This document shows positions 1,428 through 17,387 of a stretch of DNA of 23,128 nucleotides, one piece after another (within the stretch, counting starts at the first letter, position 1; every line of letters begins with the position of its first letter). The translations under genes and the position numbers were made by a program. The stretch is from a virus. The stretch lies in the IMG/VR virus record IMGVR_UViG_3300036046_000035, positions 1-23,128 of that record. The stretch is one strand, 5' to 3'. The notes below the pieces were generated by a model that saw only the letters and a program-made list of their open reading frames with translations, made no database searches and was not told the DNA's origin.

Positions 1428-4292
1428 GTGGACCTAGTAAAGCTCAAGACGGGCTACAGCTTCCGCAACACTGCCGGCGACCTCAAGGACGTCATGGGCA
1501 GGCTCAAGGAGATTGGGGCGATCTACGCCCCCATCACCGACCGGGCCTCGACCTTTGGTTTCTACCGCTGGACCAAGATGGCTGAGAAGGAAGGTCTCAA
1601 GCCGATCTACGGCGTCGAGCTGGCAGTCACCCGGTCCATCAACGAGAAGAAGCCCTCGGTGGACTATTGGACGTTCATCGCCACCGAAGAGGTCGGAGCA
1701 GTCAACCGGCTTGTGGAGTTGGCGACGACGCAGTTCCGCTACCAACCGCTCCTGACTCTGGAGCAGGCTCTGGCGGCGGATGGTGTCGTCAAGATCACTG
1801 GCTCCCGCCCGCCCATGGACCTGGAATGCGAGCCCACCCCCGGCGTCTACATCGGCTTGGGCCCCTCGTCCCCGGTGGCCATCGTCAGGCGTGCTCTGGA
1901 CCACGGCTGGCCGTTCCTGGCCTGCTTCGACAACCGCTACGTCCGGGAAGAGGACGAGTTCCTGTATGAGATGCTGACGGGCCGGGGTGCTGAAGTCCAG
2001 ACCTATGCCCAGCATATCTTGACCGAGGACGAGTGGCGCGCGTCCATCGCCCACCACAACCTGCCGGCCGATCAGGTGACGTTGGCGCTTGAGCGAGCAT
2101 CGCTTGAGGCAAGGGCCTGCTCCAGTGTGCGCCTGCCACGCGCAACCCTGCCCCATCCCGAGCGTCCGGACACGCTTGAGAACATGTGCCGAGCAGGCGC
2201 AAAACGGCTGGGTTGCGACCTTTCCGACCCGGTGTACGCCGCGCGGCTGGAGCGCGAGCTGACTCTGATAAAGCAGAAGGACTTCGAGGACTACTTCTAC
2301 ATCGTGGCCGACATCTGTCAGTGGGCACGCGCCCGCATGATCGTCGGACCGGCGCGCGGCTCGTCCTGCGGCTCCCTAGTCTGTTGGTTGCTGGGCATTA
2401 CGACGGTCGACCCGATACCATTCGGGCTGATCTTTGAACGGTTCATCGACATCAACCGCAACGACATGCCCGACATCGACATCGACTTCTCTGACCAACA
2501 ACGCTACATGGTGTTCGACTACGCCTATGAGAAGTACGGTCGGGACAAGGTCGCTCGCCTTGGGACAGTCGCCCTGTTCAAGCCCCGGTCGGCCCTGCAG
2601 GAAGTCGGCGCGGCCATGCAAATCCCCAAGTGGAAGTGCGACGCTGTGGCTGAGTCCCTGATCGAGCGTTCAGGCGGTGACTCTCGCGCCCTTCAGACCC
2701 TGGAGGACACCCTGCGGACCATGCCCGCCGGTCAGGAGCTGCTGCGTGAGTATCCGGACGCAGTCATCGCCGCCCGGTTCGAGGGCCACCCCCGCCACTA
2801 CTCCCAGCACGCGGCGGGCATCGTGCTGGCCGATCGGCCCATTACCGACTACGTGGCCGTGGACCATCGCACCGGCGCGACCATGTGCGACAAGAAGGAC
2901 GCTGAGGATGGCTACAACCTGCTCAAGGTGGACGCCCTAGGCCTGACCCAGCTGTCCGTCTTCGAGGACGCCCTGGAGCTTGCCGGCCTGCCGCGCGACC
3001 ACCTTGAGACCCTGCCACTGGACGATCAGGCAGCGTTCGAGGTGCTCAACCAAGCCCGGTGGTCCGGCATCTTCCAGTTCAACGGCCAAGCCCTGCAGTC
3101 CATCACCAAGCAGTTCAAAGTCACCAAGTTCGACGACATCGTTTCGGTCACCGCCCTCGGTCGCCCCGGCCCCCTGTCGTCTGGTGGCGCCCACGAGTGG
3201 ATCAAGCGCAAGAACGGCGCCAGTCCGATCGAATACCCCCATCCCATCTTCAAGCCCTTCCTGGAAGACACCCTCGGGATCGTCATCTATCAGGAGCAGG
3301 TCATGGAGATTGGCCGGCAGATCGGTGACCTCGACTGGGGCCAAGTCACCGCCCTGCGCAAGGCCATGTCCAAGTCACTGGGCAAGGAGTACTTCGATCA
3401 GTTCGGTGACCCCTGGAAGGCTGGTGCCATCGCCAAGGGCGTTGACCCGGCCAAGGCTGAGAAGGTCTGGGACGACCTCTGTGCCTACGGCGCTTGGTCC
3501 TTCAACAAGTCACACTCGGTTGCCTACGGTCTGATCAGCTACTGGTGCTGCTGGCTCAAGGCCCATCACCCGTTCGCCTTCGCCGCCGCCACCTTGTCTC
3601 ACGAGACGGACCCGATGCGCCAAATCCAGCTGCTGCGTGAGATGGTGGCGGAAGGCTTTGAGTACGTCCCGGTCGATGCTGAGTATTCTGGTGAGAAGTG
3701 GTCGATCGGCTTCCGTGATGGCAAGCAATACCTCGTCGGCCCCCTCAGCTCTGTCAAAGGCATCGGCCCCAAGATGGTCAAGACCATCATCGGAGCGCGG
3801 GCGCGCGGCGAGCCTATGCCGGACCGGGCCAAGAAGCTCCTGGCAAATCCCAAGACGGACATCGACAGCATCTGGCCGGTTCGTGATGCCTTCAAGCGCC
3901 ACATGCCCGACCCGTTGGAGCGGAACATCGTCACCCCGCCGACCCCGGTCATCAAGGCACAGATCAAGGCCCAGGACTACACCGTGGTGCTCTTCGTCAC
4001 CCCGTCCAAGATCAACCCGCGCGACGAGAACGAGGCGGTGATCGTGGCCCGGCGCGGCTATGAGATCAAAGACGGGCGCACCACTTCGCTCAACCTGCAG
4101 CTGACCGATGACACCGACACTATCTTCGGCAAGGTCAGCCGCTACGACTACGAGAAGTTCGGCCGTGAGATCGTTGACCGGGGTCGCCCCGGCAAGGCTC
4201 TCTACGCCATCAAGGGCCGCATCCGTGGAGGCAGCAGCTTCCGCATGGTCATGATTCAGTCAATCAAGTACATCGGGGACATCGACAAGTGA
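1428..4292 (+). CDS. dnaE: family C DNA polymerase (DNA polymerase III alpha subunit-like) with degenerate PHP domain
   Basis: 954 residues from a GTG start three bases after the exonuclease stop. In order: an N-terminal PHP-like region (about 1-230), the palm with GPARGSSCGSLVCWLLG and catalytic MPDIDIDF (D349, D351, D353), the fingers with SVFEDALEL, YQEQVMEIG and SFNKSHSVAYGLISYWCCW, a helix-hairpin-helix-like VKGIGPKMVKTII (about 776-788), and a C-terminal strand-rich region that could be OB-like. Bacterial DnaE is usually about 1100-1200 residues, so this is a compact version lacking much of the C-terminal tau-binding region. The PHP metal-binding histidines are absent: the first motif reads KLKTGYSF where active proteins have HxH, and TDR replaces TDH. 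Proofreading is therefore expected from the separate exonuclease. The polymerase probably replicates the phage genome with the primase-helicase that overlaps its stop (GTGA, 4289-4292). Confidence 0.95.
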   Translation: MDLVKLKTGYSFRNTAGDLKDVMGRLKEIGAIYAPITDRASTFGFYRWTKMAEKEGLKPIYGVELAVTRSINEKKPSVDYWTFIATEEVGAVNRLVELATTQFRYQPLLTLEQALAADGVVKITGSRPPMDLECEPTPGVYIGLGPSSPVAIVRRALDHGWPFLACFDNRYVREEDEFLYEMLTGRGAEVQTYAQHILTEDEWRASIAHHNLPADQVTLALERASLEARACSSVRLPRATLPHPERPDTLENMCRAGAKRLGCDLSDPVYAARLERELTLIKQKDFEDYFYIVADICQWARARMIVGPARGSSCGSLVCWLLGITTVDPIPFGLIFERFIDINRNDMPDIDIDFSDQQRYMVFDYAYEKYGRDKVARLGTVALFKPRSALQEVGAAMQIPKWKCDAVAESLIERSGGDSRALQTLEDTLRTMPAGQELLREYPDAVIAARFEGHPRHYSQHAAGIVLADRPITDYVAVDHRTGATMCDKKDAEDGYNLLKVDALGLTQLSVFEDALELAGLPRDHLETLPLDDQAAFEVLNQARWSGIFQFNGQALQSITKQFKVTKFDDIVSVTALGRPGPLSSGGAHEWIKRKNGASPIEYPHPIFKPFLEDTLGIVIYQEQVMEIGRQIGDLDWGQVTALRKAMSKSLGKEYFDQFGDPWKAGAIAKGVDPAKAEKVWDDLCAYGAWSFNKSHSVAYGLISYWCCWLKAHHPFAFAAATLSHETDPMRQIQLLREMVAEGFEYVPVDAEYSGEKWSIGFRDGKQYLVGPLSSVKGIGPKMVKTIIGARARGEPMPDRAKKLLANPKTDIDSIWPVRDAFKRHMPDPLERNIVTPPTPVIKAQIKAQDYTVVLFVTPSKINPRDENEAVIVARRGYEIKDGRTTSLNLQLTDDTDTIFGKVSRYDYEKFGREIVDRGRPGKALYAIKGRIRGGSSFRMVMIQSIKYIGDIDK

Positions 4293-6983: not shown

Positions 6984-6988
6984 GCCAA

Positions 6989-7026
6989 AAAGGCGCTTTT
7001 CTTTTCCTTCCGATTGGCGCATAAGG
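6989..7026 (+). promoter_or_regulatory. phage promoter-like element, copy A
   Basis: This non-coding block reads AAAG-N3-CTTTTCTTTTC-N8-TGGCGCATA and shares spacing and the constant parts with copies at 8710 and 12327. It lies directly downstream of the replication operon and upstream of the cysteine-peptidase-like gene. It lacks obvious host -35 and -10 hexamers; CATAAG could serve as a -10-like box. Activity as a promoter is inferred from position and conservation. Confidence 0.7.
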
Positions 7027-7031
7027 ATTGG

Positions 7032-7052
7032 GCCGGGGCGCGTTGCCCCGGC
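7032..7052 (+). promoter_or_regulatory. 5' leader stem-loop, copy A
   Basis: GCCGGGGC (7032-7039) pairs perfectly with GCCCCGGC (7045-7052) around a five-base loop GCGTT. It starts 9 bases after the end of the promoter block and 19 bases before the next ATG. Comparable hairpins with different stem sequences follow the other two promoter copies. It may be a 5'-terminal mRNA-stabilising hairpin or a binding site; the role is inferred. Confidence 0.65.
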
Positions 7053-7070
7053 GAACTCGAGAGAACCAAG

Positions 7071-7535
7071 ATGGCTCGCAAGACCAAGATCGCTCTGGCC
7101 CCTGAATATCAGAAGGCCATCGCCGCCTCCGGCGCTGCCGGCGACAACAACGACTGCTTCCCTACCGCCATCGCCCTGCTCACCGGCCTGGACACTGAGG
7201 CTGTTCGCAAGGCGTTCGCCGACGCTGGCCGTAAGAGCGGTCAGGGCACCCGCTGGGGCGTGGCCCGCGCCGCCGTCGGAGCTCTGGGCTACAAGATGGA
7301 GCGCCTGCCCATCAAGTGGAAGCACGAGATGATCGCCACCTACCCCGGCGTCCACAAGAACCTTCAGAACATCACCACCCGCCACCCGGCGCGCTTCGCC
7401 GCCCAGTGGGCCGGTCAGAACGTCCTGCTCCACGTCAATGGCCACGTCGCCGCCGTGGTTAATGGCCGGATGCTGGACTGGTCCATCAACCGCTCGATGC
7501 ACGTCCTGGACGTGTACAAGATCGTCAAGCTCTAA
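7071..7535 (+). CDS. putative papain-fold cysteine peptidase-like protein, 154 residues
   Basis: ATG at 7071 is chosen because an in-frame ATG further upstream (7014) would place the promoter and leader hairpin inside the coding region. The protein has NNDCFPTAIALLTG with C29 at the start of a helix, then a GRKSGQGTRWG segment, and near the end LLHVNGHVAAVV with H125 followed by NGRMLDW with D136. The Cys at a helix start, a His strand of the GH type and a following Asp/Asn strand is the arrangement of papain-like (C39/NlpC-type) peptidases and some transglutaminases or deamidases. Many phages carry short proteins of this type with unknown targets. It is the first gene after promoter copy A, so it is probably strongly expressed. 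It could act on a host protein or process a phage protein; a non-catalytic role is possible. Confidence 0.7.
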   Translation: MARKTKIALAPEYQKAIAASGAAGDNNDCFPTAIALLTGLDTEAVRKAFADAGRKSGQGTRWGVARAAVGALGYKMERLPIKWKHEMIATYPGVHKNLQNITTRHPARFAAQWAGQNVLLHVNGHVAAVVNGRMLDWSINRSMHVLDVYKIVKL

Positions 7536-7560
7536 CAGCAAACCGCAGGAGACTTCTGCC

Positions 7561-8235
7561 ATGACCGACACCAACGCCCCCGACCACTTCGTCTGGTTCA
7601 CTCCGAGCCGTGAGGAGTGGCTGCGCCAAGCTGCGATCAAGATGACTGCGTGGCTGGCCGAGATCGACCTGACCTTCAACCCGGCCACGATGCCGGTGTC
7701 GGTCGGTTTCCCCAAAATCCCGCACGGCAAGGGCAAGGCCATCGGTGTCTGCCACGTCAAGGGGGCCTGCCCCACGGACGAGACGCTCCGCCCGGTATTC
7801 ATCTGCCCTACACTGGCGGACCCGGTGATGGAGGTCCTGCCGACCCTGCTCCACGAGATGGTGCACGCGGCCCTCCCGGCTGAGGTCGGACACAAGGCTC
7901 CGTTCGCCAAGGCCATGGTCGCCCTCGGTCTGGCCGGCAAGCCGACCCACACCTATCTGGAGCCGGAAAGCCCGCTACACACCAAGATGCTGGCGCTGGC
8001 TGCCGATCTGGGCCACTACCCCCACGTGGCCATGGCTGATCGCCAGAAGCCCAAGAAGAAGGGCTGGCCCCGATATCGCTCCGTCAACGAGCCTTCCTAC
8101 AAGGTCATCGTCTCCCTCGATGCCCTCGACGAGTTCGGCCCGCCGCTGGACCCTTGGGGCGACGAGATGGAGCCCTGCCGAGTGGCCCCGATCAAGGTCA
8201 AGGGCGGCAAGACCGTCATCGAAACCGAAGCCTGA
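7561..8235 (+). CDS. SprT-like zinc metallopeptidase
   Basis: 224 residues from ATG 7561, with GCAGGAG 9 or so bases upstream; a longer frame from 7438 would overlap the previous gene. The zincin motif is clear: LLHEMVHAAL with H98-E99 and H102, followed by H111 in VGHKAPF as probable third ligand. The upstream segment ending in RPVFICPTLADPV and the SprT-like order (helix, strand, then LLHEMxHA) support the SprT/Spartan-like group, which cleaves DNA-bound proteins in cells. The C-terminal part has KPKKKGWPRY but I see no CxxC zinc ribbon, common in SprT proteins. A phage enzyme of this kind could clear DNA-protein crosslinks or attack a host factor; the target is unknown. Confidence 0.82.
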   Translation: MTDTNAPDHFVWFTPSREEWLRQAAIKMTAWLAEIDLTFNPATMPVSVGFPKIPHGKGKAIGVCHVKGACPTDETLRPVFICPTLADPVMEVLPTLLHEMVHAALPAEVGHKAPFAKAMVALGLAGKPTHTYLEPESPLHTKMLALAADLGHYPHVAMADRQKPKKKGWPRYRSVNEPSYKVIVSLDALDEFGPPLDPWGDEMEPCRVAPIKVKGGKTVIETEA

Positions 8236-8242
8236 AGACCCC

Positions 8243-8266
8243 CGGCGGGGGCAACCGTCCCCGCCG
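8243..8266 (+). terminator. GC-rich stem-loop after the SprT-like gene
   Basis: CGGCGGGG (8243-8250) pairs perfectly with CCCCGCCG (8259-8266) around an 8-base loop, starting 7 bases after the stop codon. No U-run follows (ACCCTTCCCCC), so a classical intrinsic terminator is not supported. It may be a pause site, partial terminator or 3' stabilising hairpin. Confidence 0.4.
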
Positions 8267-8307
8267 ACCCTTCCCCCGGCCCGAGGGCCAGCAAAACGTG
8301 TGCCGCA

Positions 8308-8547
8308 ATGCTTCTCCAAGACACCCACGACCTTCGGACCGGCTCCATCCTGACGGACATGCGCGGCTTCCGCTGGGTCTGTGTGGGAACGACCAACATT
8401 CCGCAGGGCATCGCCTATGTGTTCATCCGAGAGGTGAGCGGCCTGCACGGAACGTCCAAGATCAAGGACCGCATGTGGTCCAAGACCTTCAGCCAGACCC
8501 TGACCTTCGACGACTACTTCGCCAATGCCGATGACTTCCGACGCTAA
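8308..8547 (+). CDS. hypothetical protein, 79 residues
   Basis: I do not recognise it. It starts at ATG 8308 with only a weak ribosome binding site and ends in an overlap with the next open frame. The protein opens with LLQDTHDLRTG, continues with two strand-like stretches (RWVCVGTT, IAYVFIREV) and ends in DDYFANADDFRR, giving a probable small beta-rich fold. It is separated from the SprT-like gene by a 72-base gap holding a strong hairpin. Confidence 0.65.
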   Translation: MLLQDTHDLRTGSILTDMRGFRWVCVGTTNIPQGIAYVFIREVSGLHGTSKIKDRMWSKTFSQTLTFDDYFANADDFRR

Positions 8548-8713
8548 GGGTGTAGTCGTGCCGGCCAGCATCATCGTCAGGTGCCGGCAACGCGAGGCCT
8601 TCCACCGTCGCGCCGGCAACATCGCCCTGAGCCAAGCAACAAGGGACGAGCACAACAAGACGGCAGACCTGCTGGATGACATCCAGTCTCTGTTCACAAA
8701 TGGCCGGCAATAA
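8525..8713 (+). CDS. hypothetical protein, up to 62 residues
   Basis: The frame is open from ATG 8525, with alternative starts at ATG 8531 and GTG 8558. AAGGG at about 8546-8550 favours GTG 8558 (51 residues), which would avoid the 23-base overlap with the previous gene. The C-terminal half (QATRDEHNKTADLLDDIQSL) is helical and polar. No family is recognised. It is the last gene before promoter copy B. Confidence 0.5.
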   Translation: MPMTSDAKGVVVPASIIVRCRQREAFHRRAGNIALSQATRDEHNKTADLLDDIQSLFTNGRQ

Positions 8714-8748
8714 AGACCCTTTTCTTTTCGATCGATCTGGCGCATAAG
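8710..8748 (+). promoter_or_regulatory. phage promoter-like element, copy B
   Basis: Bases 8710-8746 are identical over 37 positions to 12327-12363 (copy C) and match copy A in the constant parts. The block overlaps the last bases of the previous gene and precedes the helicase gene. Its centre GATCGATC is palindromic. CATAAG or GCATAA may be a -10-like box, but recognition by a phage-encoded or modified polymerase is equally possible. Confidence 0.75.
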
Positions 8749-8756
8749 AATGAGGC

Positions 8757-8771
8757 GGCGCGAGTTGCGCC
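8757..8771 (+). promoter_or_regulatory. 5' leader stem-loop, copy B
   Basis: GGCGC (8757-8761) pairs with GCGCC (8767-8771) around the five-base loop GAGTT. It begins 11 bases after the promoter block and is followed by AAACTGGAG, which carries the helicase ribosome binding site. The middle stem pair is C-G here and G-C in copy C, so pairing is kept while sequence changes. Confidence 0.6.
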
Positions 8772-8788
8772 CAAACTGGAGCGAACTG

Positions 8789-10294
8789 ATGACCTTCCAA
8801 GCCACCCCCCAGCAGCAGACCTTCCTGTCGGCCCTGACGGACACCGTCAGCCACCTCGCCCTCGTGGCCCGCGCCGGTTGCGGCAAGACCTCGACCATCC
8901 TGATGGGCGTCGACGCCATCATGGCCAAGTTCCCGCGCGCTGAGGTTCTGGTCTGTGCCTTCAACAAGTCGATTGCCGACGAGGTGGGTGGCAAGCTCAA
9001 GAAGGCCGGTCACGTCAACTGGAAGCAGGTCCAAGCGTCCACCCTCCACTCGCTGGGCTGGGGCCTCGTCCGCTTCGCCTACAAGCTGGACAACAACGCC
9101 ATCGACGACAAGAAGGTGCGCCGCATCATCGAGACTCAGAACGAGCCTGAGTTCGCCGAGTTCGGTGCTCAGGTCGAGGCCATGGTGCGCTACGGCAAGC
9201 AGGCCGGTGTCGGCTTCTTCCCGGACCTGCCGATTGAGTCGTTCGACGTGTGGGCCCATCTGGCCAACCACTACGACGTCAACGGCTTCGACGACACGTC
9301 GGTCCTGGACACGGTCATCCAGCTGACCCAGAAGGTCTACCGCATCTCGCTGGCCCAGACCGATGTGGTCGACTTCGACGACATGATCCTGTTCCCTCTG
9401 GTCAAGAACCTGCGCGTCAAGTTCGGCAAGGACTTCATCTTCCTGGACGAGGCCCAAGACCTGAGCCGCAGCCGGCAGGCGCTGGCCCGCAAGTTCCTCA
9501 AGTACGGCACCGGCCGGATGATCGTGGTCGGCGACGACCGGCAGGCCATCTACGGCTTCACCGGCGCGGACGCGGCGGCGCTGGACAATCTGGTCCGCTC
9601 CCTGCAGGCCAAGGTGCTTCCGCTGACGGTGACGTGGCGCTGCCCCAAGGCCGTGGTCGCTCTGGCCCAGACGATCGTTCCGGACATCATGGCCGCCCCT
9701 TCGGCCCCGGAAGGCGAGGTGCTGCGCCTGACTGAGATGCCCAAGTCGTTCGAGCCGACCGACGCCATCCTCTGCCGCAACACCGCCCCGCTGGTGCAGA
9801 CCGCCTACGCCCTGATCCGTCAGGGAACGGCCTGCAAGGTCGAGGGCCGGGCCATCGGCGACGGCCTCAAGCAGCTGGCCAAGCGTTGGAAGGTCAAGTC
9901 CATCGACGCCCTGCTGAACCGCATCGACGCGTATCAGGAGCGCGAGGTGCAGAAGGCCATGGCCAAGGACCAAGAGCAGAAGGCTGAGCAGGTCATCGAC
10001 AAGTGCGAGACCATCCGGGTCATCTGCCGGGCCTGCATCGGCAAGGGCCAGACGACCGTGGCCGACGTGGTCTCTTTCATCGACAGCCTGTTCGCCGACG
10101 ACGTGACCGGCGTGACGACCCTCGCCACCTATCACCGGTCCAAGGGCCGTGAGTGGCCGCGCGTCTTTCTGATCAACCACAATGAGCTCTGCCCGTCGCG
10201 CGCTGCCAAGCAGCAATGGCAGCTGGAGCAGGAAGCCAATCTGGCCTACGTGGCCTTCACTCGGGCCCAGCAGACGCTGGCCTTCATCAACTGA
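8789..10294 (+). CDS. UvrD/Rep-like superfamily 1 DNA helicase
   Basis: 501 residues from ATG 8789, supported by GGAG at 8778-8781; an ATG at 8750 lies within the leader hairpin region and is rejected. Helicase motifs in order: Q-motif-like ATPQQQTFL, motif I in ARAGCGKTSTI (K33), motif II in FIFLDEAQD (D220, E221), motif III in VVGDDRQAIYGFTGAD, motif IV region TWRCPKAVVALA, motif V TYHRSKGREWPRVF and motif VI ANLAYVAFTRAQQTL. These define an SF1A 3'-5' helicase of the UvrD/PcrA/Rep group, though shorter than the usual 650-720 residues, with reduced accessory subdomains. It probably assists phage replication restart, recombination or repair. It is the first gene after promoter copy B. Confidence 0.93.
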   Translation: MTFQATPQQQTFLSALTDTVSHLALVARAGCGKTSTILMGVDAIMAKFPRAEVLVCAFNKSIADEVGGKLKKAGHVNWKQVQASTLHSLGWGLVRFAYKLDNNAIDDKKVRRIIETQNEPEFAEFGAQVEAMVRYGKQAGVGFFPDLPIESFDVWAHLANHYDVNGFDDTSVLDTVIQLTQKVYRISLAQTDVVDFDDMILFPLVKNLRVKFGKDFIFLDEAQDLSRSRQALARKFLKYGTGRMIVVGDDRQAIYGFTGADAAALDNLVRSLQAKVLPLTVTWRCPKAVVALAQTIVPDIMAAPSAPEGEVLRLTEMPKSFEPTDAILCRNTAPLVQTAYALIRQGTACKVEGRAIGDGLKQLAKRWKVKSIDALLNRIDAYQEREVQKAMAKDQEQKAEQVIDKCETIRVICRACIGKGQTTVADVVSFIDSLFADDVTGVTTLATYHRSKGREWPRVFLINHNELCPSRAAKQQWQLEQEANLAYVAFTRAQQTLAFIN

Positions 10295-10303
10295 GGAGCA
10301 GTT

Positions 10304-10633
10304 ATGCAGGACCACCTTCCGATCATCAAGGTGAGGAAGTTCCCGATGGCCGGTCGTCATGGCGACCGTGCCACGGTGGACACTCCCTACACCCGCTACG
10401 AGGTCCACCTCGTCAGCACCAGCAACCCGCTGAACAGCGTCATCGTCCGGGAGTGGTCCGGCTACGATGATTTCGGTTGCCGGGTCGAAGACCAACGGGC
10501 GGTCAAGAAGGAGGTGGATGAATACACTAACCGCCTTTGGGACTTCTTCGGCACCGAGGTTCAGTGGGTCAACATGCGCAAGGTTCCGCCGGTGCCGGCC
10601 GACCCTGAGTGGGAGGAGGTGGTCGATGGATAA
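10304..10633 (+). CDS. hypothetical protein, 109 residues
   Basis: I do not recognise it. The ATG is preceded by GAGGAGC 5-11 bases upstream. Strand-like stretches (RYEVHLVS, SVIVREWSGYDD) followed by a helix (AVKKEVDEYTNRLWDFFG) and an acidic proline-containing tail (PADPEWEEVVDG) suggest a small alpha/beta protein. It follows the helicase gene by 9 bases and overlaps the next gene by 8 bases, so it belongs to the same operon. Confidence 0.7.
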   Translation: MQDHLPIIKVRKFPMAGRHGDRATVDTPYTRYEVHLVSTSNPLNSVIVREWSGYDDFGCRVEDQRAVKKEVDEYTNRLWDFFGTEVQWVNMRKVPPVPADPEWEEVVDG

Positions 10634-11006
10634 CAACGAGAAACTCCTTCTGGCTCAGGAGCTCATCGAAGATCTGTGCGACCACGAGGGGGCGGAGGGC
10701 TTCAGCGAAAGCACTCGCGAGCTTCTGAAGCGATGGGAGGAGGCCAATAAGCCTCCAATGGTCCAGGGCCGCACAGCGGCGGAGATCGGGGCATGGATCA
10801 CGGAGCGTGACAGGCGATTTGAAGAGGCTCTGGAGGAGGCCAAGGGTTTGGCCAGCGCCGCCTCTGAGGAGGACTTCTCTAGGAGCGTGGCGCTCGTCTT
10901 CGAGCTCTGCCCGGCAATGTCTGCTGACAAGCAGGCGGACTTCATGGCACGGGCCTTCTGGCCCGTTGTCGAGCGCGCTCGACAATCAGAAAGGGAATAC
11001 AGATGA
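10626..11006 (+). CDS. hypothetical acidic helical protein, 126 residues
   Basis: I do not recognise it. ATG 10626 has GGAGG about 8 bases upstream and overlaps the previous stop; longer in-frame starts would overlap that gene much more. The sequence is almost all helix with many Glu/Arg pairs, including FEEALEEAKGLASAASEEDF, and could form a coiled coil. It ends in an ATGA overlap with the next gene. Confidence 0.7.
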   Translation: MDNNEKLLLAQELIEDLCDHEGAEGFSESTRELLKRWEEANKPPMVQGRTAAEIGAWITERDRRFEEALEEAKGLASAASEEDFSRSVALVFELCPAMSADKQADFMARAFWPVVERARQSEREYR

Positions 11007-11128
11007 TCATCAGGAAGCTCAAGTGCTGGCTCAAGGGCCACCGCTGGCGCTACAGCAAGCGCACGTCCATGCGCAAGCGGACCCAGTGGAACAGGTGTGC
11101 CCGGTGTCACAAGACGCGCAAGGCATGA
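11003..11128 (+). CDS. small basic zinc-ribbon-like protein, 41 residues (DUF1660-like)
   Basis: ATG at 11003 overlaps the previous stop and the TGA (11126-11128) overlaps the next start, so both ends are set by ATGA junctions. The protein has C8-x4-H13-x-W near the start, then C32-x2-C35-H near the end (CARCH), with many Lys/Arg between. This C-x4-H ... C-x2-C layout matches small DUF1660-type phage proteins thought to bind zinc. Nucleic acid binding is plausible from charge; the role is unknown. Confidence 0.6.
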   Translation: MIIRKLKCWLKGHRWRYSKRTSMRKRTQWNRCARCHKTRKA

Positions 11129-11385
11129 TCGTCCGAGACCCGGCCCGGCTCAAGGCCATGGAGCGGTTCCTGTACTGGTATGCGGAGACCCGACCCCATC
11201 AGGTCAAGAGGCTGTCGTTCGGCCCTCTCGGTAAGTGGGCCGTGGGACCGACAGAAGAGGGCCGGGTCCGATGGCTGTTCGAGGACGAGTGGGATTACAG
11301 CAGATTCTGCAAGGCCTATCGCGGGCACTTGCTGATTGCGGGATATCTCGGCCCGCTTGAGACCGAGACAAGGGTATTCAAATGA
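11125..11385 (+). CDS. hypothetical protein, 86 residues
   Basis: I do not recognise it. ATG 11125 overlaps the previous stop as ATGA and its own stop overlaps the next start as ATGA. The frame is open further upstream but that would cover two other genes. Features are a helix rich in aromatics and Arg (MERFLYWYAETRPHQ), a W-containing middle (GKWAVG, VRWLFEDEWDYSRF) and a short C-terminal strand. Confidence 0.65.
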   Translation: MIVRDPARLKAMERFLYWYAETRPHQVKRLSFGPLGKWAVGPTEEGRVRWLFEDEWDYSRFCKAYRGHLLIAGYLGPLETETRVFK

Positions 11386-11600
11386 GCAAGTTCGAGCTCT
11401 CCCTGCTCAGGGTGCTGGCGATCGGTGTGATCCTGCTGCTTGCCGGCGGCTCCCTGTGGACCATCTTCCGAGTCATGTGGCTCGGGAGCTACTGGGCATC
11501 TGCAAGCATCGTGCAGACGCTCTTTGTGGGGGTGATCATCCCACTCATAATCATCTGGGTCGTGATCAGACTCATCATCGCCATCACGAGGGCAAAATGA
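11382..11600 (+). CDS. small membrane protein with two transmembrane helices, 72 residues
   Basis: Two hydrophobic segments are visible, about residues 9-30 (VLAIGVILLLAGGSLWTIF) and 45-68 (QTLFVGVIIPLIIIWVVIR), joined by a short loop (GSYWASAS). Both ends carry positive charge, suggesting a hairpin with N- and C-termini in the cytoplasm. It overlaps the following lipoprotein gene by 4 bases. Holins and membrane-remodelling partners can look like this, but nothing in the sequence settles the role; partnership with the SPFH-like lipoprotein is inferred from adjacency. Confidence 0.7.
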   Translation: MSKFELSLLRVLAIGVILLLAGGSLWTIFRVMWLGSYWASASIVQTLFVGVIIPLIIIWVVIRLIIAITRAK

Positions 11601-12280
11601 AGAAGACCATCATCCTGGCCATCCTGGCCTGCGCGGCTCTGGCCACTGCGGCCTGTGACCGTGCCATCTCCAACATGCAGACCCTGATCTCCGACGACTG
11701 CGGCGTCACCTGGAAGGAGATCGCGCCCGGCGGCGCTGTGCCGGCGCGCGTGGGCGTCTGCGCCCTGAAGGTCACCATCCCTGGCTATCCCATGGCCGGT
11801 GAGGCGCGCTTCCGGACGAGCTTCGCCAACCGCGTAATGGCCGACGTCTCGATCAGCTACGAGTACACCATCACCGACGGCAAGAAGTTTCTGACCGAGG
11901 CCCGCTATCTGGGCCGGCAGAACTCCGAGGGCGACGGAGAGGCCAATGCGTCGGACAAGTACGAGTCGGCCGAGAACACCATCATCGACCGGCGCATCCG
12001 CGAGGCCGTCACGGCCATGCTGATGACCCAGGACATCGTCGACTTCGATCAGGGCAAGTCCGAGGACGCGCTGATGGCGGCGATCAATCGGGCGCTGGCC
12101 GAACGCGGTGTGGAGCTGGCCTCCATGGCGCTGGTGGTGACGCCGGACAACCAGACCCGTCAGGCCATAGACGTGGTGAGCGCGCGGCGCGTCTATGAGT
12201 CGGCGGCCATCCCGGCTCTGGGCGACGACATCATCGTGGCCCGCTCCGGCGCCAGTCAGGTGACGGTACAGAACAAGTAG
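11597..12280 (+). CDS. lipoprotein with SPFH/prohibitin-like domain
   Basis: 227 residues from ATG 11597, set by the ATGA overlap with the previous stop. The N-terminus is a signal peptide (KK, hydrophobic core IILAILACAALATAA) ending at C20, a plausible lipoprotein cysteine although the -3 residue is Thr instead of Leu. The body has VMADVSISYEYTITD, a helix with IDRRIREAVTAMLMTQDI, DALMAAINRALAERGVELA and VVTPDNQTRQAIDVVSA. That order (strand with D-V-x-V-x-Y, RxxR helix, then helix ending 'L...G(V/I)', then a strand and a Gln/Ala-rich helix) is what band 7/SPFH proteins show. Those proteins form membrane-associated rings, for example around FtsH (HflK/C). A phage protein of this type could interfere with host membrane proteolysis or superinfection. 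The fold call is by eye and needs a profile search. Confidence 0.65.
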   Translation: MKKTIILAILACAALATAACDRAISNMQTLISDDCGVTWKEIAPGGAVPARVGVCALKVTIPGYPMAGEARFRTSFANRVMADVSISYEYTITDGKKFLTEARYLGRQNSEGDGEANASDKYESAENTIIDRRIREAVTAMLMTQDIVDFDQGKSEDALMAAINRALAERGVELASMALVVTPDNQTRQAIDVVSARRVYESAAIPALGDDIIVARSGASQVTVQNK

Positions 12281-12326
12281 GTTCTGGGCCTGTGGAACCC
12301 GGCTGCAGAAATGTGGCCGGGGAACC

Positions 12327-12365
12327 ATAAAGACCCTTTTCTTTTCGATCGATCTGGCGCATACA
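12327..12365 (+). promoter_or_regulatory. phage promoter-like element, copy C
   Basis: 37 bases (12327-12363) are identical to copy B although the flanks differ. It lies in a 125-base non-coding gap between the SPFH-like lipoprotein and the next gene. The gap also holds a hairpin CCCGGC (12298-12303)/GCCGGG (12316-12321) without a T-run directly behind it, which could be a weak terminator for the upstream operon. Confidence 0.75.
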
Positions 12366-12374
12366 GAATGGACC

Positions 12375-12389
12375 GGGGCGCGAGGCCCC
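12375..12389 (+). promoter_or_regulatory. 5' leader stem-loop, copy C
   Basis: GGGGC (12375-12379) pairs with GCCCC (12385-12389) around the loop GCGAG, followed by AAACGGAG carrying the ribosome binding site of the gene at 12406. The placement matches copies A and B. Confidence 0.6.
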
Positions 12390-12405
12390 AAACGGAGTCA
12401 GAAGA

Positions 12406-12627
12406 ATGACCGCTCGCGAACAACGCATCGCCGACCTCAAGGCCACCGCCGCAACTTACGCCCGAGTTGGTGTTCAATGTCAGGCGGAAAAGAAGCTGGC
12501 GATCGCCGCCCGCTTCGAGGCGATGACCGATGAAGAATACTCGGCACACCAAGAGAGCCAGAACGCCACCACGACCCAAGCGATGCGCCGCTCGGCCGCC
12601 AAGATGGCCGCCAAGGTTTGCCGCTGA
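12406..12627 (+). CDS. hypothetical basic helical protein, 73 residues
   Basis: I do not recognise it. It is the first gene after promoter copy C, with GGAG (12394-12397) about 8 bases upstream of its ATG. It is largely helical with alternating Ala and Lys/Arg, and a middle DEEYSAHQES stretch. Its stop overlaps the next start (TGATG). Confidence 0.7.
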   Translation: MTAREQRIADLKATAATYARVGVQCQAEKKLAIAARFEAMTDEEYSAHQESQNATTTQAMRRSAAKMAAKVCR

Positions 12628-12881
12628 TGGCACGCAAGATGACCGCCGCTCAGGAGCTCACTTTGTCCCGCATCAACGCGGGCTGGCCCGAGAGTTTCAT
12701 CCACGCCGGGGAACCCCCGGCGCTGGCCTCTGCCCTGCTCCGAGTGTGCATGGGCGCTCACCACTGCATGGACGGGGAGCTGGTGCGTTGCCACCGCACC
12801 GTCCTCACCGACACGCCGGCAGGGTCCCAGACCCAGTCGTTCCGCATTCACCCCGACGGCAAAATGGAGCGCAAGCTGTGA
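12627..12881 (+). CDS. hypothetical protein, 84 residues
   Basis: I do not recognise it. ATG 12627 overlaps the previous stop by one base (TGATG) and is preferred to an in-frame TTG at 12618. The sequence contains C-M-G-A-H-H-C and later VRCHRTV, so three Cys and three His lie within about 20 residues; metal binding is possible but not shown. Its stop overlaps the next gene as GTGA. Confidence 0.65.
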   Translation: MARKMTAAQELTLSRINAGWPESFIHAGEPPALASALLRVCMGAHHCMDGELVRCHRTVLTDTPAGSQTQSFRIHPDGKMERKL

Positions 12882-16943: not shown

Positions 16944-16970
16944 GACGGTGAATCGGGGGAAGTGGGCCAG

Positions 16971-17190
16971 GAACCTGGAACCAAGGCTGAGGGAAGGCGG
17001 GACCAAAGTGAGCGGTCCAGGTTTCAATGGCTTTCGATGGGTTCCAGGTTCGGTTCCAGGGACACGTTTGGGGACTCTGCCGGCTCTTCTCAGGTTCCTC
17101 TTTCCTTTATTCTCTGAAGACTCAGGAAAGATTTAGAGAAAGTTCTTCCGCCGAGTTTCGGAATACGGTGGATATTTGGAACTTGGAACC
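16971..17190. repeat. dispersed GAACCTGGAACC / GGTTCCAGGTTC repeat family
   Basis: GAACCTGGAACC at 16971-16982 is the exact reverse complement of GGTTCCAGGTTC at 17040-17051. Related copies are GGTTCCAGG at 17052-17060, GGTCCAGGTTTC at 17014-17025, CAGGTTCC at 17091-17098 and GGAACTTGGAACC at 17178-17190. Such iterated sites next to terS are what a small-terminase binding or packaging site could look like. Confidence 0.65.
17099..17140 (+). repeat. two interleaved inverted repeats (possible pseudoknot)
   Basis: TCTTTCCT (17099-17106) pairs with AGGAAAGA (17124-17131), and TTCTCT (17110-17115), inside that loop, pairs with AGAGAA (17135-17140), outside it. The crossing order is that of an H-type pseudoknot if transcribed. 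It could equally be a pair of protein-binding sites in DNA or chance in a pyrimidine/purine-skewed stretch. Confidence 0.4.
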
Positions 17191-17249
17191 TGTCGGCTTT
17201 CCGGCGTCTTCTGGTGCTGTACTTGGCGCTGCCGTCACAATACTTCCAC

Positions 17250-17284
17250 GGACCCTTTCCTTTCGCGTCGCTCCGAGGCAAAGT
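17250..17284 (+). promoter_or_regulatory. diverged copy D of the phage promoter-like element
   Basis: GGACCCTTTCCTTTCG at 17250 resembles AGACCCTTTTCTTTTCG of copies B and C, and the following TCGCTCCGAGGCAAAG aligns with TCGATCTGGCGCATAAG with a few changes. It lies about 105 bases upstream of terS. A 15-base part of it (17268-17282) recurs at 22030. It is probably a late-class variant; this is inference from similarity. Confidence 0.4.
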
Positions 17285-17387
17285 CACGCCCGCCCCCAAT
17301 GGCCGCCGGTGCGCCCCGGTGCGGAGGGCCGGGCCTGCGGAATGTCCTCCTGTTGGTTCGGCCCTCCTGATACTCTGAGAGGACTGA

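Follow-up and report, generated by a model that had tools for sequence, protein, structure and literature searches.

What is the short element that stands three times ahead of separate genes in the viral record IMGVR_UViG_3300036046_000035, and what would read it? The window, by which we mean the whole of this 23.1-kb record from a viral collection (23,128 nucleotides, 63% G+C), carries all of its called genes on the plus strand and has an intergenic share of 7.6%; gene starts and intergenic labels are those of the gene calls made in this analysis. The sequence of the element argues strongly for a promoter class. We put at roughly three in four the probability that this class belongs to an uncultured lineage of DnaE-carrying tailed phages, is driven by host RNA polymerase and serves early and replication units. 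It appears to be real and lineage-specific, known in kind and new in its box and in its -10 preference.

The pattern CTTTTCTTTTC-N8-TGGCGCATA is found exactly at 6996-7023, 8719-8746 and 12336-12363, on the plus strand only and each time in an intergenic gap, as the original prediction had described, with a start codon 40-45 nucleotides (nt) downstream. The same prediction had named copies inside genes or on both strands as evidence against a promoter, and none of the three is of that kind. No further match occurs in the window even with three mismatches allowed, and dinucleotide shuffles give an expectation of 0.01 matches, in agreement with the earlier statement that chance is not the source of the repeat. 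Copy 1 (6987..7025) consists of an A-tract at 6987-6991, the nine-base box TTTTCTTTT at 6997-7005 with its TTTTCT at -35, a spacer of 17 base pairs (bp) and the -10-like CATAAG at 7020-7025, and it heads a 154-amino-acid protein to which no function is assigned (7071..7535, weak match to PHROG 3754). Copy 2 (8710..8748; A-rich 8710-8714, box 8720-8728, CATAAG 8743-8748) heads a UvrD-like DNA helicase (8789..10294), and copy 3 (12327..12365; A-rich 12327-12331, box 12337-12345, CATACA 12360-12365) a 73-amino-acid protein, also without assigned function (12406..12627), all on the plus strand. The 37 bases reported as common to the last two copies are ATAAAGACCCTTTTCTTTTCGATCGATCTGGCGCATA, at 8710-8746 and 12327-12363. 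The AAAG said to open each copy does lie at 6989 in the first; in the other two it lies at 8712 and 12329, the positions given for it (8710 and 12327) being the starts of the 37-mer. The identity of copies 2 and 3 extends to GATCGATC, a spacer that is free to vary elsewhere, and this suggests that one promoter was copied recently.

The element recurs in relatives of the phage. A DnaE alignment search gave 80 loci, which together with five further contigs amount to about 1.1 Mb, many of the compared contigs being fragmentary. Here TTTTCTTTT occurs 26 times at 36-56 nt before a start, in 20 of the 26 cases with a -10 core at N17; the antisense reading of the sites gives three before starts, none with a -10 core. 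The letter string of the 9-mer reads the same when reversed. Other placements of the C and single-base mutants of the 9-mer mostly gave 0-2 occurrences before starts, and the exceptions, TTTCTTTTT with 13 (4 with a -10 core) and CTTTCTTTT with 7 (2 with a -10 core), are variants of the box or overlap with it. Sequence, strand and position of the box are all specific. Clustering of the box-bearing rows is seen on the DnaE tree (a value as low as that observed came up in 10 of 500 shuffles), and in the well-supported set around the window 9 of 11 rows bear it. The box-bearing rows fall into no single clade, and at least 15 changes are required, some of which arise because box-free rows are often short fragments.

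Single relatives may hold many copies. The 68-kb contig G005 has eight oriented copies of a AAAARNCGCTTTTCTTTT-like sequence and the 66-kb contig G009 has five, where chance copies of the 9-mer are expected at 0.08 and 0.07, respectively, and the divergent promoters of both bear TTTCCTTTT variants that were found independently of the 9-mer. The -10 sides differ among these copies (CATACA, CTATAT, TCTACT, TATACA, TTTACT). The GCGCATA that the original prediction had taken for a box belongs to this variable region, and the constant part is TTTTCTTTT. G005 also encodes, behind a box promoter of its own, a ParB-like protein (PHROG 1033; L062:12190-13002, minus strand), which is 86% identical in G009. 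When viral contigs were searched with the pattern AAARRCGCTTTTCTTTTC, matches fell mostly in apparent coding stretches, and the clear new true one was L095/G023; those in L008-L011 look like coding sequence and were set aside as promoter copies. In G023 (L099), a contig of 43% G+C, box promoters lie at 7138-7177, 9831-9870 and 12750-12789 on the minus strand.

The anatomy of the element is that of a bacterial promoter in its spacing and unusual in its sequence. In the core set, information is concentrated in A at -45 to -41, CGC at -38 to -36, the box at -35 to -27, TG at -17/-16 and the -10 region. The box was the search key, so that its own conservation is partly by choice and its variants are under-sampled; the A-tract, the CGC, the -17/-16 bases and the -10 region lay outside the key, except in copies first found by GGCGCATA. 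With 72-94% A at -45 to -41, the A-tract lies where that of an UP element is placed (about -46 to -38) and is UP-element-like; a contact with the alpha subunit is putative. In the 15-16 copies selected without regard to the -10 side, the -10 score peaks at a spacer of 17 after TTTTCT (mean +2.8 to +2.9, all other spacers from 10 to 24 lying below -1.7), and none of 200,000 random placements scored as high. A promoter of sigma70 spacing, with two elements about 17 bp apart, is indicated because TTTTCT and the -10 keep a distance of exactly 17 bp, also where copies were chosen blind to the -10. The statement that the element is not a standard -35/-10 pair was therefore right for the -35 sequence and wrong for the spacing, into which TTTTCT-N17-CATAAG/CATACA fits. 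The spacer frequently ends in TGGCG. Among 34 unique copies the -10 core has A at -11 in 24, T at -10 in 24 and A at -9 in 27, and the base at -12 is C in 23, T in 6, G in 4 and A in 1, where the sigma70 consensus has T.

A repeated sequence could also be a repressor operator or a replication or packaging signal and not a promoter, and the element does contain a short inverted repeat, AAAG-N3-CTTT. Such a role is very unlikely, as the copies keep a single orientation to genes and a fixed distance to the start codon, carry a -10-like hexamer at 17 bp in the unselected set, and lack promoter features where the sequence occurs in antisense.

A comparison is offered by the helicase gene, whose relatives' orthologues are preceded by the same promoter or by an ordinary sigma70-like one. 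In L026, L027, L030 and L038 (protein 61-67% identical) the same element or a close variant stands ahead of the gene. Where the box is lacking, TTTACT, TTTACA, TTGTCT or TTGTGT is followed after N17 by TACATT, CATACT, TATATG and the like at the same site, and cultured isolate phages show TTGACT-N17-GTAGAA or TTGCAA-TATAGT-like sequences there. Since both box-free and cultured relatives have such promoters at this site, the element occupies the site of a sigma70-type promoter in other phages. The earlier proposal of a dedicated phage promoter is well supported by position and orientation, by conservation ahead of one and the same gene among relatives, by the multiple copies within single relatives and by the fixed sigma70-type spacing.

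We infer from these features that transcription starts at the element, by host RNA polymerase with a primary-type sigma factor. The A-tract (-45 to -41) and CGC (-38 to -36) would be followed by the box at -35 to -27, replacing the TTGACA -35 hexamer and supplying the -35/upstream contact; after the 17-bp spacer from TTTTCT a weak -10 (CATAAN, usually with C at -12) would lead into a leader some 35 nt long, in which a hairpin is frequent and which extends to the ribosome site, and the polymerase would start short early and replication transcription units. Host RNA polymerase is the likely user, given the spacing of sigma70 type, the A-tract, the sigma70-like promoters at orthologous sites and the failure to find phage sigma genes.

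The original prediction had named a phage-encoded or a modified RNA polymerase as a possible user, and a motif that is strong, lineage-specific and present in multiple copies is what a phage-encoded RNA polymerase or sigma factor would be expected to own. A phage-encoded enzyme found no support and is now highly improbable: the two-part spacing of 17 bp is that of the bacterial holoenzyme, and sigma70 region 2 and region 4 domains were absent from G005, G009, G004 and the other box-bearing contigs searched, with positive controls, though these contigs may be incomplete. A region 4-like match was found in G011, which is box-free. A search for T7-type RNA polymerase gave no match in the contigs, nor in the control genomes, so that it is uninformative.

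A host alternative sigma factor may be considered instead, either the heat-shock factor RpoH or a further member of group 3 whose -10 is CATA-like. Such factors would agree with the C at -12 and the CATA-type -10, and the box is far from TTGAC. This reading is nevertheless unlikely given the sigma70-like promoters at the same site in relatives and the distribution of the element in bacterial DNA. In 257 Gb of DNA from bacteria and archaea the full element, as CTTTTCTTTTC-N9-GGCGCATA, matched four times, close to the number expected by chance on our own estimate. Across 385 genomes from the class to which the Hyphomonadaceae genome L060 belongs, AAARNCGCTTTTCTTTT showed no enrichment (3 forward matches vs 8 for the reversed pattern); this class may not be that of the phage's host. 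Sigma54 and sigma28 consensus sequences did not fit.

Several observations weigh against reading by the host. TTTTCT agrees with TTGACA at 3 of 6 positions, short of a sigma70 -35 element, and C or G at -12, poor for sigma70, is found in 27 of 34 copies; because both fit poorly, the strict conservation of the box is left unexplained by host sigma70 alone. The box-free promoters ahead of the helicase in relatives were chosen by eye, and the lack of enrichment of the exact box in the 385 genomes, with the same limit as to class, counts on this side as well. That host sigma70 and the alpha subunits alone read the box is given slightly less than an even chance.

A box that is strictly kept, unlike TTGACA and clustered by lineage may alternatively be bound by a phage cofactor that replaces the contact between sigma region 4 and the -35 element, an appropriation of sigma like that by T4 MotA/AsiA, which would make these cofactor-dependent early or middle promoters. 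We regard this, which would amount to the modified RNA polymerase of the original prediction, as possible, though the less probable case. The box ends about 13 bp ahead of the -10, and the MotA box, which replaces the -35 element, is placed 12 +/- 1 bp ahead of its -10 (PMC2988021). The phage-specific box in place of a -35 element thus resembles T4 middle promoters. However, the MotA box is (a/t)3TGCTTtA, whereas the box here is TTTTCTTTT and lacks TGCTTtA, and MotA promoters require an excellent -10 and tolerate changes in the box, the reverse of the weak -10 and strict box seen here. Homologues of MotA or AsiA did not come to light, though no search by name was made.

A candidate for such a cofactor surfaced in a comparison of gene content, mostly among loci that extend 7 kb or more upstream of DnaE. 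It is a family of small phage proteins (L160:2131-2688, L131:258-737, L062:8604-9203 in G005, and others, minus strand) with the conserved C-terminal domain NPRRxGTHGHxS...NPGITYEDYIxAGGRxxDLxWD, and its best viral match is Gp18 of the alphaproteobacteria phage PhiJL001. AlphaFold2 models are confident (predicted local distance difference test, pLDDT, 96 for the 67-amino-acid domain), and the domain is read as a winged-helix-like fold; matches of the models to PDB are weak (best E 0.08), and an N-terminal helix-turn-helix match in two members is near noise level. Among DnaE loci, 14 of the 18 that bear the box encode the family, as do 5 of the 27 without it (Fisher p 1.4e-4, a statistic that ignores kinship and each locus's early-arm coverage), and in 14 of 14 contigs examined the gene follows a box that is on the same strand. 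On the other hand, no member was found in G023, G010, G013, G004 or the window, most of these being fragmentary; the window begins just 1.4 kb ahead of DnaE and does not include the divergent arm that encodes the family in relatives. G023 has three box copies though it has almost no genes in common with other box-bearing contigs. The protein is a lead to a cofactor, not a result. The full proposal, in which a winged-helix cofactor from box-driven units would bind TTTTCTTTT and let host RNA polymerase start without a usable -35, in a system unrelated to MotA/AsiA and clade-wide in uncultured phages, is doubtful and slightly less probable than a cofactor in general.

Other known phage promoters resemble the element in part. 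Early promoters of T4 combine UP, -35, TGn and -10 elements and are used by host sigma70-RNA polymerase (PMC2988021). Like them, the element is a phage-wide repeat with sigma70 spacing, an upstream A-tract and conserved bases beyond the host consensus, and it heads early genes; T4 early promoters, in contrast, agree closely with the host -35, TGn and -10, whereas the conserved block here is a 9-base T-rich box with TTTTCT and the -10 is weak with C at -12. The Mu promoter Pm is a Mor-dependent sigma70 promoter with a proximal UP element (PMC4390567), similar in the A-tract upstream of the core promoter and without this box. CtrA-controlled promoters of alphaproteobacterial phages have TTAA-N7-TTAA sites (PMC9437464) and likewise show one regulatory site in intergenic promoters of unrelated phages, but the window has no TTAA-N7-TTAA, and CtrA was rejected as a reading. 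Among known phages, a BLAST search of a collection of 50,697 records did not reveal the element, and TTTTCTTTT was absent from the whole records of R5C, Pan1 and CRP-6 and from the parts examined of Strzyga and BabaJaga; in a match to Sphingomonas phage MMDA13 the box is absent, and the match is a coincidence.

All three window copies are followed by a G+C-rich hairpin that the original prediction did not mention. That of copy 1 (7032..7052, plus strand, as are the others) has an 8-bp stem, GCCGGGGC/GCCCCGGC, near the predicted transcript start (p 0.006 against shuffles); copy 2 (8757..8771) has a 5-bp stem GGCGC/GCGCC and copy 3 (12375..12389) a 5-bp stem GGGGC/GCCCC (p 0.10 each), in which the third pair is switched from G-C to C-G relative to copy 2. 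Stem sequences vary from copy to copy. In the 38 nt after the -10 of 26 copies, perfect stems exceeded those of shuffled leaders (Fisher p 6e-6) and those of 108 other leaders (Mann-Whitney p 6e-4); the bare count of leaders with p<0.1 did not differ significantly (p 0.14). We take the hairpin to be a real but secondary part, which perhaps protects the 5' end of the transcript.

Other RNA structures were observed in relatives. In five of them a structured RNA of about 110 nt follows directly after the box (L128:3773-3890, L140:1078-1187, L155:4264-4366, L162:2688-2798 and L072:14162-14272, the last being G003; all on the minus strand). Its stem shows covariation (8 double changes vs 2.2 in shuffles, 0 of 500) and surrounds the constant loop CCCAAGCATAA, with GGTAGG and GGAGCGAAAGCAGAAG elements after it. 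No Rfam family matched the stretch at gathering score, and it may be a leader RNA or small RNA of a new kind. In L128, the nearest relative of the window by DnaE, five type II hammerhead ribozymes (RF02276) follow one another along the box-driven early arm (970-1032, 1394-1457, 2429-2492, 2774-2836 and 3108-3169, minus strand), which suggests that the early transcript is cut at many points. Further ones lie at L140:92-155, L146:2115-2177 and L167:96-161, also on the minus strand; the window has none.

The gene order of the window is DnaQ-like exonuclease, DNA polymerase III alpha of the DnaE type (1428..4292, plus strand; the marker gene for placing the phage and finding its relatives), primase/helicase and helicase, followed by terminase genes, of which the large subunit was assigned by similarity. 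A gap of 444 nt ahead of the small terminase gene (16944-17387) has C/T-rich stretches and no box, and is a possible late control region. The host is probably, not certainly, an alphaproteobacterium; the assignment stays uncertain because the closest records to the helicase are alphaproteobacteria phages (about 40% identity) and other genes of the window point elsewhere.

At the level of sequence, the box provides a marker, open to test, of how transcription is controlled in a large phage group for which the records searched contain no close cultured member, and it allows the transcription units of these phages to be drawn from sequence alone. Because its -35 and -12 positions deviate from the primary sigma consensus, the promoter class may point either to a relaxed reading of promoters in the hosts or to a new phage cofactor.

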